Shown piece after piece: positions 7,387 through 32,638 of a DNA stretch of 39,522 nt. Numbering within the stretch: the stretch's first letter is position 1; every line of letters starts with the position of its first letter. Source of the stretch: Candidatus Parcubacteria bacterium (lineage in GTDB: Bacteria > Patescibacteriota > Saccharimonadia > Saccharimonadales > 2-12-FULL-41-12); NCBI GenBank assembly GCA_019347895.1, contig JAHWKM010000012.1, positions 1-39,522 on the forward strand, in the 5' to 3' direction. The notes beneath the pieces are model-generated. The model saw only the letters and a program-made list of their open reading frames with translations. It was not told the DNA's origin and ran no database searches. The position numbers and the translations under genes are program-made.

Positions 7387-7893
7387 ATGTCTACCAAAAA
7401 TGAGCTGCAAAAAAAGTATCGATCATCGACAGATTATATTTTAAAAAGCTTAATTCCATATAGCGAGCCCAACATTAAACTGGCGTATAAACCCAATCAA
7501 TTTTTTGACGACCTGGAAAAACTGGACGGCTGGCAGGCCAAACGAAAATCGTTACGAACTAGCTATTATCGAGCAATTAAAAAAGGACTATTAGAAATAG
7601 ATGAAACAGGCATACCCCGGCTTACAGAGAAAGGAAAAAATAAAATAAAGGTTTACAAACCAAAAAAACTTGGAAAAAACGCCAGAATTCTTGTAACCTT
7701 CGATATTCCTGAGGTAGAAAAACGAAAGCGGGAAAGACTAAGAGTGCTTTTGCGGGAACTTTATTTTAAACAAGTGCAAAAAAGTGTCTGGGAAACAGAG
7801 TATGACGTTATTGATTATTTAAAAGCCGAAATTGAAGAAAAGCGTTTGCAGCCGTACGTTAACGTTTATGAATCCCTCAAAATAAATCTATAA
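7387..7893 (+). CDS. PaaX-like regulator with winged-helix N-terminus and Cas2-like/ferredoxin-fold C-terminus (often auto-annotated as Cas2)
   Basis: 168 aa; C-terminal ARILVTFDIPEVEKRKRERLRVLLRELYFKQVQKSVW matches the Cas2/PaaX central-domain pattern; N-terminal half resembles HTH (RKSLRTSYYRAIKKGLLEIDETGIPRLTEKGKNKI). Confidence 0.7.
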   Translation: MSTKNELQKKYRSSTDYILKSLIPYSEPNIKLAYKPNQFFDDLEKLDGWQAKRKSLRTSYYRAIKKGLLEIDETGIPRLTEKGKNKIKVYKPKKLGKNARILVTFDIPEVEKRKRERLRVLLRELYFKQVQKSVWETEYDVIDYLKAEIEEKRLQPYVNVYESLKINL

Positions 7894-8041: not shown

Positions 8042-8854
8042 ATGCGCGCAGTATGGACAGGTTCACTTAGTTTCGGACTTATTAATATACCCGTTAAAAT
8101 GTACAACGGCGAAAATCCGCAGTCCGACCTGAAGTTTAATTTGCTCGATAAAAAAACACATTCCAAAATTCGCTATGCCCGGATTAGCCGCAAAACCGGC
8201 GAGGAAGTTCCTTACGAGGATATAGTTAAAGGCTACGAATACCAGGACGGGGATTACATTATTTTGACCGATGAAGACTTTAAAAAAGCCAATCGCCAGC
8301 GGCAAAAAACAGTTGATATAAAAGCTTTTGTCGACGAAGAAGAAATAGACAAGCGCTACTTTAAAAAACCTTATTATTTAGAGCCTGAAAAAGGCGCCGA
8401 GAACGCCTACGCTTTGCTGCTGGAGAGTTTACGGCGCGCCAAAAAAATGGCCGTTGCCAAGTATGTCCTGCATAACCGCGATCATATAGCGGCCATAGGA
8501 CCCATTGGCCGGGTGGTGACATTGTTTGAGCTGCGTTTTTTAAAGGATGTCCGGGAACCGACCAGATTAAATCTACCCGACCAGGAAGCCGCGTCCGACG
8601 AGCAGGTCAAAATGGCCCTGGCTTTGATTGACCAGCTGTCTAAGCATTTTATTCCGGAAGATTATCACGATACTTATGAAGATGAAATGCGCGAGATTAT
8701 TGAACAAAAAGCCAAAGGCCGGCCCGTGAAAGCCAAAGGCAAAGAAAAGGCCCCGACCCAAACAGAAGATATTATGGACATGCTCAAAGCCAGCCTGGAT
8801 AAGGCCGGTTCGAAAGAGCGGACTTCTAAGAAAAAGGAACTGGCAGGCAGATAA
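8042..8854 (+). CDS. ku: Non-homologous end-joining protein Ku
   Basis: MRAVWTGSLSFGLINIPVKMY N-terminus and YYLEPEKGAENAYALLLESL signature of bacterial Ku; strong SD (gggaggtgg) before ATG. Confidence 0.96.
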   Translation: MRAVWTGSLSFGLINIPVKMYNGENPQSDLKFNLLDKKTHSKIRYARISRKTGEEVPYEDIVKGYEYQDGDYIILTDEDFKKANRQRQKTVDIKAFVDEEEIDKRYFKKPYYLEPEKGAENAYALLLESLRRAKKMAVAKYVLHNRDHIAAIGPIGRVVTLFELRFLKDVREPTRLNLPDQEAASDEQVKMALALIDQLSKHFIPEDYHDTYEDEMREIIEQKAKGRPVKAKGKEKAPTQTEDIMDMLKASLDKAGSKERTSKKKELAGR

Positions 8855-8857
8855 GTC

Positions 8858-11344
8858 ATGTCTCTTAAGGAATACAAGTCAAAACGTTCATTTGACTCAA
8901 CCCCTGAACCCGCCGGACAGTCTGAGGCCGGCCAAGACCAGCAGCTGAGGTTCGTAGTGCAAAAGCACGACGCCTCGCACTTGCACTATGACGTGCGGCT
9001 GGAAAATGCCGGGGTACTGGTCAGCTGGGCCGTACCCAAAGGGCCTTCGCTCAATCCCAAGGACAAACGCCTGGCAATGATGACCGAAGACCACCCCTAT
9101 GATTACCAGTATTTCGAAGGCTTGATTCCCAAGGGCAATTACGGCGCCGGCCAAGTTATAGTTTGGGACAGCGGTACCTATGAACTGGTTGGCGAGGGTA
9201 GCAAAACCGACCAGGAAAAAGCTTTTAAAAAAGGCCTGCAGGAAGGCAAAATTTCCTTTATATTACATGGCAGGAAACTAAAGGGAGAATTCACGCTGGT
9301 TAAAAGCCCGAAGCCCAACCAGCCAAACAGCTGGCTGATGATAAAAAAGGCTGACCAATATTCCAGCCAACGAGACATTACCAAAGAAGACCGCTCGGTT
9401 ATCAGCAACATGCAGGTGGAAGAAATAAATGAAACAGAGACTTTTAACTGGGAAGAGTGGCAAGATTGCATTGCTAACTATGAGCTGCCCAAACGGGATA
9501 TGCCGACCCGTGTTGAGCCGATGCTGGCTACGCTTATTGATGGGCCGTTTTCTGATAATAATTGGATTTTCGAAGTCAAATGGGACGGCTATCGGGCCAC
9601 GGCCCGGATTAGCGGCGGCAAGGTAGCGTTGCAATCGCGCAACCAAAAAAGTTTTAACAGCAAATACCCTGCGATTGTTGAGTCGCTGCAAAAAGTTTCG
9701 GTGCCGGCGGTGATGGACGGCGAAGTCGTGGTTCTCAGAAAAAACGGCTTGTCCAGTTTTAGCGACCTGCAAAACTACGATTTTAAAGCCAATGCGCATT
9801 TAGTTTATTACGCCTTTGATCTTCTCTGGCTGGATGGTTACGATATGACCAACGCGCCTTTGCACCTGCGCAAAACATTTCTTAAAAAAATTTTGCCGGC
9901 CACCGACAATGTACGGTTCAGCGACCATGTCACGGGCCGAGGGGAAGAATTTTTTGAAGCGGCTTGCCGGCAAAACCTGGAAGGCATTATAGCCAAGCAA
10001 TCAACCGGCACATATCACATGGGCAAAAGGGTGAAATCCTGGCTCAAAATTAAAACAGTTAAACGCCAAGAGACGGTCATCGGCGGTTTTACCGAGCCCC
10101 GGGGCGGCCGGAAGGGCCTGGGCGCTTTGATTTTGGGAGTTCACAAGGATAACGATCTGGTTTATGTGGGCCACTCCGGCACGGGCCTGTCCGACAAAGA
10201 GCTGATTGATATAAGGCAAGAACTGGAGACCATGGAGCAAAAAACCAGCCCTTTTAAAACGCCGCCCAAACCCAACGCGCCGGTGCATTGGGTCAAACCG
10301 AAGCTTTTGTGCGAAGTAGCTTTTTCTGAGTGGACAAATGACGGGCAAATGCGCCATCCGAAAATAGTCGGTCTGCGTACAGATAAGCCGGCCAGCGAAA
10401 TTGTGCGGGAACAGCCGGTTAAAAAACAAGAGGCGCTAAAGGAAAAAACCCCCGCCTCGAAAGTAGAATTCACTAACCGGGATAAAATTTTCTGGCCGGA
10501 CTTGGGCCTGCACAAAGGCGACCTTATAGATTATTACCAAACCATGGCCGGCAAAATAATGCCTTACGTGAAGAACCGTCCAATGACCCTGCTGCGCCAT
10601 CCGAACGGCCTCCGCGGCAATCCGTTTTTTCAAAAACACATGGACCAACCCCTGCCGCACGGTTTTAAAACTTTCCGGCGATATTCGGAGTCCAATAAAA
10701 AAGATATCGATTATTTTGTCTGCGACAGCCAAGACGCGCTGCTCTACATGATCCAGCTAGGCTGTATCGAGATAAATCCTTGGAACTCTACCGTCAACTT
10801 GCCGGAAAATCCGGATTGGCTGGTGCTGGACCTCGATCCCGAAGGTATTGGTTTTGAGGCGGTAATTCAGACAGCTTTGGAGACTAAAAAACTGCTGGAT
10901 GAGCTCAAGCTGCCCGCATTTGTTAAAACTTCGGGTAAAACCGGTATGCATATTTATCTGCCGACAAAAACGCGTTACGACTATGACCAGGTTCGCCGGT
11001 TTAGCGAACTACTAGCCCGCCTGGTGGTTCAGCGGCTGCCGGATATAACCAGCGTGGAGCGCTCGCCTTCTAAGCGCCAGGGCAAAGTTTATGTTGATTT
11101 TCTGCAAAACCGGGTCGGCCAAACTTTGGCGGCACCGTTTTCGGTCCGTCCGACTCCAGAGGCGACGATATCCATGCCGCTGGATTGGAGTGAAGTTAAC
11201 AAAAAGCTGCTTCCTGAAAACTTTACGCTTCAAAACGCCGGCCAGGTTTTAAGCCGGCGGACAAATCCATGGCAGGATTTTTTCAGCTCGAGGATTTCCA
11301 TAGAAGACGCCGTAGAGGCAATAGAAGCCAGTGGCCAAGGCTGA
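8858..11344 (+). CDS. ligD: ATP-dependent DNA ligase D, domain order phosphoesterase-ligase-polymerase
   Basis: PE domain (FVVQKHDASHLHYDVRLE), ligase (FEVKWDGYRATARI with catalytic Lys), POL domain (FTNRDKIFWPDLGLHKGDLIDYY, LDLDPEGIGF). Confidence 0.96.
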   Translation: MSLKEYKSKRSFDSTPEPAGQSEAGQDQQLRFVVQKHDASHLHYDVRLENAGVLVSWAVPKGPSLNPKDKRLAMMTEDHPYDYQYFEGLIPKGNYGAGQVIVWDSGTYELVGEGSKTDQEKAFKKGLQEGKISFILHGRKLKGEFTLVKSPKPNQPNSWLMIKKADQYSSQRDITKEDRSVISNMQVEEINETETFNWEEWQDCIANYELPKRDMPTRVEPMLATLIDGPFSDNNWIFEVKWDGYRATARISGGKVALQSRNQKSFNSKYPAIVESLQKVSVPAVMDGEVVVLRKNGLSSFSDLQNYDFKANAHLVYYAFDLLWLDGYDMTNAPLHLRKTFLKKILPATDNVRFSDHVTGRGEEFFEAACRQNLEGIIAKQSTGTYHMGKRVKSWLKIKTVKRQETVIGGFTEPRGGRKGLGALILGVHKDNDLVYVGHSGTGLSDKELIDIRQELETMEQKTSPFKTPPKPNAPVHWVKPKLLCEVAFSEWTNDGQMRHPKIVGLRTDKPASEIVREQPVKKQEALKEKTPASKVEFTNRDKIFWPDLGLHKGDLIDYYQTMAGKIMPYVKNRPMTLLRHPNGLRGNPFFQKHMDQPLPHGFKTFRRYSESNKKDIDYFVCDSQDALLYMIQLGCIEINPWNSTVNLPENPDWLVLDLDPEGIGFEAVIQTALETKKLLDELKLPAFVKTSGKTGMHIYLPTKTRYDYDQVRRFSELLARLVVQRLPDITSVERSPSKRQGKVYVDFLQNRVGQTLAAPFSVRPTPEATISMPLDWSEVNKKLLPENFTLQNAGQVLSRRTNPWQDFFSSRISIEDAVEAIEASGQG

Positions 11345-19405: not shown

Positions 19406-20277
19406 ATGAAATCCATAGATTCAACAAGGCCCAGCAAGACGCTTTTCTGCCGCATGTAGAAAAAGGAACGATCATACTTATCGGCGCTACTACCGAAAAC
19501 CCCAGCTTTGAAATTATCAATCCCCTGCTGAGCCGCAGCCGGGTGCTGGTGCTAAAGCCTCTTAGCAAATCAGAAATCATCCAAATTATTAAACGGACAG
19601 TAAAGTCCGAAAAAATTCCGGCCAAACGCCTGCCGGCTAAAAGTATCGATCTGTTAGCCGAATTATCCGGCGGTGACGGCCGGGTGGCGCTGGGAAATTT
19701 AGAGCTGGCTTTGCAGCTAAGCAAAGGGAAGCTGACCGAAGAAGTAATAATAACCGCCGCCCAAAAACGGGTGCCAGGCTATGACAAAGCCGGAGAAACG
19801 CACTATAACGTGATCAGCGCCTTTATAAAATCTATGCGCGGCAGCGACCCGGCGGCGGCTTTATATTATCTGGCGAGGATGCTGCAAGCCGGCGAAGACC
19901 CGAAGTTTATTGCCCGGCGAATGGTAATATTTGCTTCGGAAGACGTAGGGATGGCGGCACCGGCGGCGCTCAACCTGGCCGTCAGTACTTTTCAGGCTGT
20001 CGAGAGAATAGGTGTGCCAGAATGCCAATATAACCTTTTCCATTGTGCTTATGTGTTAGCTAAAACCGAAAAATCCCGAGCGGTAGCTGAGGCCATGGGC
20101 AAAGCCCTGCAGGCAGCCAAACAGCATCCGGATTTACCCGTCCCGCTGCACCTAAGAAACGCCCCGACTGAACTTATGAAAGATTTAGGCTACGGCAAAG
20201 GGACCAAATGGGAGGCCGGCTTTAAACATCCCAAAGGTTTCTTGCCGGAGGAAATACGCGATATTGATATTGTATAA
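19366..20277 (+). pseudogene. rarA: Replication-associated recombination protein A, N-terminally truncated (no Walker A)
   Basis: Reading frame opens after a stop at 19363-19365 with ...[45 protein letters not shown]...LHLRNAPTELMKDLGYG; the ~100-residue N-terminal part with the P-loop is absent upstream. Confidence 0.75.
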
Positions 20278-31418: not shown

Positions 31419-31835
31419 TTATAGATCGAGGGAATCGTCTGAGAGTTTTTCGCTTGGGAAATCAGAGTCAGCGCTCAAGTTGGTTATATCGTCGTTCACC
31501 GAGTTATTTAAATTTTCCAGCTCTAACGCCGAAGGTTCTTTAAACAAATTTGCCGGAGCGCTTTCTTCGCTCGGAGTTTGCTGGGAATTATCGCTGCCAG
31601 AGGTCAGAAAAACAACAGCAGCGAGTATTATAAAAACGCCGATCAACCCGCCCAGAATTATAGTAATTTTTTTAGTCTTAGAGTCCGACGGCTCGTAATT
31701 ATGCGGCTGGGGCGGCGGCCCGGCTGGCTGGGGCGGATTCGATGCGCCATAAACCTGGCCGGGGGGAGGACCATATTGGTTTTGCGGGGGCTGGCTGGAA
31801 GGCTGGGGGTTTGTGTCGGGATTTATTGAGTCCAT
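31419..31835 (-). CDS. Hypothetical Pro-rich single-TM protein
   Basis: PQPSSQPPQNQYGPPPGQV N-terminus, TM IIILGGLIGVFIILAAVVFLTSG (approx.), SD ggag. Confidence 0.7.
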   Translation of the reverse strand: MDSINPDTNPQPSSQPPQNQYGPPPGQVYGASNPPQPAGPPPQPHNYEPSDSKTKKITIILGGLIGVFIILAAVVFLTSGSDNSQQTPSEESAPANLFKEPSALELENLNNSVNDDITNLSADSDFPSEKLSDDSLDL

Positions 31836-31837
31836 TT

Positions 31838-31980
31838 CATATCTCCATTATGTTAAGTGAAGGCCGAATGGGTGGATGCGCCGCGGCGTCTTTGGGAAGG
31901 AGGCATATCTGAAGATATGTTGACGAGTCAAAACGTCGCGGAGTACCACCGATTCGGTTTGAAGCTGGAATGGAGATATG
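31838..31980 (+). ncRNA. Candidate structured RNA with nested helices
   Basis: P1 CATATCTCCATT/AATGGAGATATG (31838-31849/31969-31980); P2 CCGAAT/ATTCGG and GGTGG/CCACC; P3 CCGCGGCGT/ACGTCGCGG with one G-U on the + strand; P4 CATATC-TGAA-GATATG. Confidence 0.75.
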
Positions 31981-31993
31981 TGATGGGCTCATA

Positions 31994-32638
31994 CTACTCC
32001 TGGCTGGCTCTTGGTCTTAATTCGCTGGCATGGCCGGTTAATAAGGGCTTAACCTCGTTAACTACGTGATCCGTTATCCCGTTGGAGCGGGTTCTGATCT
32101 GGGTATTGTACAGCCTGGCAGTTTCTACGAAAGCTTTGAACCCGACCACGTCGGCCGCACAGTTTATACTGACCATGTCATCCAGTGTTTGCCTGAATTC
32201 TCCGGCTGTGGATTCAAAACCGTTGACTTGGCGCACGAATTCAGCACGCTGCTGTTCCAGCTTAAACGTGTCTTTATTGACATATTTCAGGCTGCCTATA
32301 GCCACCCAGAGCTTGGCGTCGACCTTACGATAAATTTCACTGCGTTTATCAAATATGCTGACATATTCATCCCGGACTTGTCGAAGCTTAGTTTGGGCTC
32401 TAACGCAACTGTCTTCCAGCCGCTTAGTAGTCCTTTCATCCAGCTTGATTTTACGCTCGGCCTTTCGTTGGGCTACCCGCTGTTTTAGCGAACTCCCCGG
32501 CTTAGTCGGCTCCGGCGCTGACTGGGCGTTTACTATTGAGCCGCTAAATACCGCCAAAATAATCAGCAAAGGTAGGAATATAAACCAGTTTTTTGTTATA
32601 ACAGCGAATTTAAACATATATAATCTACTATAAATCAT
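31994..32638 (-). CDS. Hypothetical exported coiled-coil protein
   Basis: Signal/TM FIFLPLLIILAVFSGSIVNAQSA followed by charged helical region. Confidence 0.7.
   Translation of the reverse strand: MIYSRLYMFKFAVITKNWFIFLPLLIILAVFSGSIVNAQSAPEPTKPGSSLKQRVAQRKAERKIKLDERTTKRLEDSCVRAQTKLRQVRDEYVSIFDKRSEIYRKVDAKLWVAIGSLKYVNKDTFKLEQQRAEFVRQVNGFESTAGEFRQTLDDMVSINCAADVVGFKAFVETARLYNTQIRTRSNGITDHVVNEVKPLLTGHASELRPRASQE

Follow-up and report, generated by a model that had tools for sequence, protein, structure and literature searches.

Between two minus-strand genes of an operon, the window (i.e., the whole stretch of 39,522 nucleotides [nt] analyzed here) carries a long nested inverted repeat. A sequence-only reading had placed the repeat at 31838-31980 and interpreted it as a probable structured RNA of the + strand, opposite to the flanking genes, while allowing for a leader role on the minus strand.

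The inverted repeat and its fold

Sequence and fold both bore out every pairing that had been named, but the extent had been set too short: folding of the wider region showed that the closing helix continues outward to an outermost base pair at 31828-31990. The element and its surroundings comprise the following features.

31826..31994, + strand: whole element (cmsearch with our second covariance model, R2; 144.7 bits, E 8e-28)
31828..31849, + strand: 5' arm of the closing helix, GAGTCCATTTCATATCTCCATT, pairing with AATGGAGATATGTGATGGGCTC; on the - strand it carries a Shine-Dalgarno sequence (GGAG) followed by ATG at 31835
31969..31990, + strand: 3' arm of the closing helix, AATGGAGATATGTGATGGGCTC, with an outward Shine-Dalgarno sequence and ATG on the + strand that lead here only to a short frame
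31852..31862, + strand: conserved internal-loop region, 5' side, around GTTAAGTGAAG, facing 31959-31969
31959..31969, + strand: conserved internal-loop region, 3' side, around TTGAAGCTGGA, facing 31852-31862
31895..31932, + strand: apical module made up of GGGAAGGAGG, the hairpin CATATCTGAAGATATG, and TTGACGAGTCAA; contains tandem G.A pairs and is better conserved than any other part of the family
31419..31835, - strand: downstream operon gene, 138 aa, no Pfam match, with a start codon from the element
31994..32638, - strand: adjoining operon gene, lying upstream, 214 aa without Pfam match

The + strand of 31838-31980 reached a folding energy of -75.9 kcal/mol compared with a mean of -37.5 kcal/mol for 200 shuffled sequences (z = -9.9), whereas the - strand reached only -49.6 kcal/mol (z = -7.0); the broader segment 31818-32010 gave -97.6 kcal/mol. 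The inverted repeat is far beyond chance, and its + strand is the preferred one, as had been proposed. More specifically, the + strand forms a single rod with conserved G-A-rich internal-loop regions and a conserved apical module, and the internal-loop region (31852-31862/31959-31969) is invariant in a second copy from the same genome and in close homologues. The view that this is not a terminator was upheld. The left arm had been seen to lie over the Shine-Dalgarno sequence of the gene at 31835; in fact, both that sequence and the start ATG lie inside the arm. We looked for a promoter-like site near the window copy and found none.

Elsewhere in the window, 8042-11344 (+) encodes Ku followed by a LigD-like protein with the domain order phosphoesterase, ligase, polymerase; the two make up a complete bacterial pair for end joining, here in a genome of 0.9 Mb. 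The protein at 7387-7893 (+) matches the central Cas2-like domain of PaaX as well as CRISPR Cas2, and the frame at 19543-20277 (+) encodes no more than the C-terminal region of an MgsA-type AAA+ ATPase, whose N-terminal region was not seen in this frame.

Copies, range and insertion sites

BLAST of the element against its own genome returned a second copy, 73% identical, and BLAST of relatives returned several further copies, some of them partial. A covariance model then matched 57 of the 396 genomes of the order (14%, in a patchy distribution), and the second model, built on 100 copies, matched 48 of 389 genomes sampled across the phylum, other classes included, and found six copies in the source genome itself. 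Copy length is nearly constant at around 165 nt (about 160-175 nt), and the outer helix of the family, which constitutes near-perfect terminal inverted repeats, spans ~22-24 bp, 92% of its cells being paired over the 100 copies. Copies are dispersed over different contigs and occur in both orientations relative to neighboring genes. The copy-rich genome G155 yielded 11 arm-pattern matches per strand; near-identical pairs of recent copies were present within genomes (95% in G155, 98% in G185), as were half-copies (G212). Arm sequences vary between subfamilies, and conserved loops are common to copies from different classes. One subfamily, with the arms CTGGACTTACGCAAAATCG / TTTTGCGTAAGTCC (L173, L202, L203, L095, and L096), is unusually similar between Saccharibacteria and another class of Patescibacteria, a likeness in sequence that suggests transfer between classes.

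The element could be assigned to no described family, and the sequence-only reading had likewise named none. In Rfam, at gathering and at relaxed thresholds, the window element and other element-bearing loci gave chance matches only, no family (6S, raiA, OLE, ROOL, GOLLD, and all others) scoring above its gathering threshold. A wide pattern scan of genome contigs returned 16 matches, five of them from Candidatus Saccharibacteria, to which all named full matches belong; four of the 11 other matches (L112, L114, L120, and L123) were run against the model and failed. The element was not found in phage, plasmid, and viral collections, where the 80 matches to a loose pattern that were run against the model failed, and literature searches combining Patescibacteria with miniature inverted-repeat transposable element (MITE) terms, along with a broader CPR query, returned no description of the family.

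Comparison with relatives indicates how the window copy came to its place. In a genome of the same genus (G001), the two flanking genes have orthologues (61% and 43% identical) that lie 16 nt apart without the element, and the junction, ACGGAGTAACAGATGGGACC, supplies a native Shine-Dalgarno sequence and ATG for the downstream gene; G004 is likewise empty between the same two genes. Judged by these empty sites, the window copy is an insertion. A dedicated + strand RNA gene at this locus, as first proposed, does not fit with a dispersed insertion that is absent from a same-genus relative, occurs in both orientations, and lacks a detectable promoter-like site. Native starts split at TA were readable outside the element at other loci, namely, in topA at L031 (ATGAG-TA[element]TA-AAAACCTC) and L040 (ATGGC-TA[..]TA-AGAATTT), at L054 (ATGGC-TA[..]TA-AG..), and similarly at L022, L064, and L098. 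The ten host genes scanned were topA (three times), tmk, ruvA, metK, mnmA, a pilT-family ATPase, ftsA, and a response regulator. Over all 100 copies the boundary signals are less sharp: TA lies within 3 nt of the boundary in 46 copies on the left and 51 on the right, a noisy signal, and a 2-bp direct repeat flanks 24 copies versus 14 expected (p = 0.002), a weak sign of target-site duplication.

The arms themselves offer a way for such insertions to be tolerated. Each arm of the Saccharibacteria copies carries an outward Shine-Dalgarno sequence and ATG, and the main-subfamily arm, GGAGATATGAAATGRGYTC, points outward at both ends. Of the 81 ends that face a gene and could be tested by virtue of a long open frame, 62 have the arm ATG in the reading frame of that gene (p = 2e-15 versus one third, although p-values here overstate independence because element copies share ancestry). 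Since only some insertion phases keep the frame, in-frame arms most simply reflect the survival of tolerated insertions. The element would insert at a gene start, the gene split there being translated again from the ribosome-binding site and ATG of the arm, and the copies surviving in compact genomes would be mostly those whose insertion phase allows the arm ATG to restore the frame. Outside the order, arms often show ACA or ATA in place of ATG, and most have no ATG; the start-codon property is therefore a lineage feature rather than the core of the family, which consists of the G.A-rich internal loops together with the apical module (pair 102-191 of the latter is retained in 99% of the 100 copies).

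A family-like rod was also observed within an RNA gene. The 607-nt class A RNase P RNA of G025 (contig C7; L004:1403-2009, -) contains such a rod at 1433-1599 (52 bits), inserted in + orientation just before the conserved ACAGAACCCGG.

Covariation and selection on one strand

Compensatory changes were already evident among five sequences, at 40 of 71 pairs. Once 100 copies were compared, every one of the 71 pairs showed changes on both sides, and the covariation score was 0.806, versus 0.236 for shuffled alignments and 0.10-0.13 for slid partners; the expected structured element with covarying helices in relatives was thereby recovered. The + strand was the more stable one in 99 of the 100 copies and folded better in 48 of 48 members of the phylum set. 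Mismatches in a strand-symmetric alignment of the two arms were likewise unequal, with 633 G.U and 161 A.C (188 and 59 in the phylum set). Most homologues came from a + strand model, which favors + strand pairing; the G.U bias is kept in copies found by BLAST alone (13:1 in L011, 4:0 in L003, 4:0 in L012, and 5:2 in L013).

Two comparisons bear on the source of this bias. First, G.U exceeded A.C in GC-rich (297:105) and AU-rich (183:112) columns alike, so a C-to-T bias alone is insufficient to account for it. Second, the ratio of G.U to A.C was similar where the adjacent gene is antisense (4.1) and where it is sense (3.5) to the + strand. Because the bias is equal for sense and antisense genes, selection does not act on the host messenger; because the excess holds whatever the direction of the neighbor gene, the target of selection is the + strand in single-stranded form. 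As read from these substitution patterns, the + strand fold is shown to be under selection regardless of neighbor gene direction.

Between copies occupying the same site in different genera, in tmk (L071/L072) and ruvA (L028/L039), 16 and 17 pairs, respectively, have changed on both sides with pairing preserved. These compensatory changes are more than movement alone can account for, and they are the least explained of our observations. The pairing kept at shared sites is suggestive of maintenance of individual copies in place, and such maintenance may proceed via a + strand function, replacement from other copies, or palindrome repair.

Origin of the element and competing explanations

Taken together, the window element is very probably a non-autonomous, MITE-like mobile element, a copy of a Patescibacteria family inserted between operon genes; the name MITE fits because of the size, inverted repeats, dispersal, and empty sites. 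Several findings stand against this reading: no mobilizing protein was found among the transposase and reverse transcriptase families tested, the sign of target-site duplication over all copies is weak, the arm differences between subfamilies are unusual for a MITE moved by a DNA transposase, and the compensatory changes at same-site copies go beyond what movement alone would produce. A transposase flanked by the element's own arms, which would be its autonomous partner, was looked for and not found; such a partner is not strictly required, given that most bacterial MITE families also have no known one (PMC2229807). IS630-type DDE_3 transposases were present in one of 27 element-bearing genomes, showing no association, and the same was true of RVT_1 reverse transcriptases (10 of 40 element-bearing genomes versus six of 40 others, none in G155). 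We rejected a group II intron or retron on the ground that the cognate reverse transcriptase is not associated with the element. An integron attC site was also rejected: GTTRRRY/RYYYAAC is absent, the ends instead reading GARYYC...GRRYTC, and copies are scattered over contigs rather than arrayed.

On the manner of propagation, our account is tentative. The family could form a phylum-wide mobile class that is propagated or kept as a folded single strand, either RNA or single-stranded DNA, and recognized via its tandem G.A modules, the terminal repeats in Saccharibacteria serving as two-way portable start sites that make gene-start insertion tolerable. A mobilizing or maintaining factor would then recognize the folded + strand, its points of recognition presumably being the G.A-rich internal loops and the apical module.

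It is possible, if rather doubtful, that the copies instead constitute a functional non-coding RNA family, in which each copy yields a + strand rod RNA with a host function (e.g., binding a protein through the G.A modules) and has used mobility solely to spread. Deep covariation, a near-constant length of about 160-175 nt, loops conserved across classes, compensatory changes at same-site copies in different genera, and a copy kept in + orientation inside RNase P RNA would all suit such a family; its patchy presence in 14% of the genomes of the order, the two orientations relative to neighbor genes, the truncated copies, and the lack of a promoter-like site near the window copy would not.

Less likely is a single-stranded-DNA hairpin moved by a Y1/HUH transposase (RAYT or IS200-like) in the manner of REP/REPIN sequences. 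The strand-specific fold, with G.T tolerated, suits such a hairpin, and Y1 proteins were more frequent in element-rich (14 of 20) than in element-poor (five of 20) genomes (p = 0.01), but the most copy-rich genome, G155, gave no Y1 match. Moreover, a search of 24 Y1 loci found an element copy at only two, both on G228 contigs and not flanking the gene in a REP-like manner. RAYT mobilization was therefore set aside, the partial association coming without general physical linkage and the RAYT genes carrying other palindromes. These RAYT-type proteins (about 205-235 aa) are common in the Saccharibacteria studied (G000:C20:46923-47147; G000:C23:57349-57591, a copy containing TGA; and L188-L206), and most are flanked by short REP-like palindromes of their own, such as TGCAAGGCC...GGCCTTGCA. 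IS200-type TnpA is confined to 10 of the 396 genomes of the order. An IS200 origin of the arms was considered because the start of the G153 tnpA matches the arm, and was rejected; a 67%-identical homologue aligns only from residue 5, which together with the rarity of IS200 TnpA makes this look like another gene-start insertion.

A cis-acting leader (a riboswitch or thermometer) that sequesters the Shine-Dalgarno sequence and AUG of the adjacent gene is highly improbable for the family. Both signals do fall within the arms, each of them paired to the arm across the helix, yet the + strand bias is alike for sense (3.5) and antisense (4.1) genes, the adjacent genes are unrelated (topA, tmk, ruvA, metK, mnmA, pilT, and ftsA), and outside the order most arms have no ATG. 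The minus-strand leader role entertained for the window copy holds only insofar as the gene at 31835 takes its start site from the arm; the conserved fold belongs to the other strand. In view of the empty sites and the orientation-independent bias, we rejected an antisense non-coding RNA gene and a cis leader alike. Least probable of all is a palindrome that evolves neutrally, its symmetry maintained during replication by template-switch correction and not by selection. Such correction could repair the two arms at once and would operate at fixed positions such as the same-site pairs, but leaves unexplained both the G.U excess over A.C in GC-rich and AU-rich columns and the conserved unpaired G.A loops.

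The MITE-like reading also places the family among known repeats, since MITE-like elements form stem-loops and often have no known transposase (PMC2229807, PMC10969869). With ERIC (RU-1, 127 bp, enterobacterial), Correia/NEMIS, and RUP elements it shares a length below 200 bp, the lack of coding capacity, terminal inverted repeats, TA ends, a mainly intergenic dispersal, and transcripts predicted to form one long stem-loop (PMC2229807). Those elements are each confined to one genus or family (PMC2229807), whereas the present family is phylum-wide in Patescibacteria and differs further in its deep strand-specific covariation, in the outward Shine-Dalgarno sequence and start codon of its Saccharibacteria arms, and in that no related IS was found. 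Rickettsia palindromic elements (RPE), as summarized in PMC2229807 from Ogata (2000, 2002), are likewise palindromic and in frame at protein genes, and are reported there from RNA genes including RNase P RNA, comparable to the G025 copy; according to that summary they are read through inside genes, while the present element restarts genes at the 5' end and has a different architecture. REP/REPIN sequences with their RAYT (Y1) proteins are also hairpins in dispersed positions, and they too are plausibly recognized as single strands in a strand-specific way (PMC3116915), but the present element is several times longer, and the palindromes beside RAYT genes in these genomes are short and of another kind. 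Pneumococcal BOX, RUP, and SPRITE share the character of structured interspersed repeats that can be cotranscribed with neighbor genes; BOX is modular, and the parts of the account consulted describe no start codons from both arms for any of the three (PMC3049150).

The family described here is a new one, phylum-wide in Patescibacteria, and of the known kind of small palindromic MITE-like mobile element (ERIC, Correia, and RPE). Patescibacteria are hard to culture and have very compact genomes, and few mobile elements have been described from them. In element-bearing genomes, the N termini of some core genes (topA, ruvA, tmk, metK, and others) are derived from a mobile element. The family further provides a clear case of selection for a repeat's fold on one strand, irrespective of how the repeat is oriented in the genome, and this strand-selected fold opens the old problem of the movement of MITE-like repeats to direct testing.
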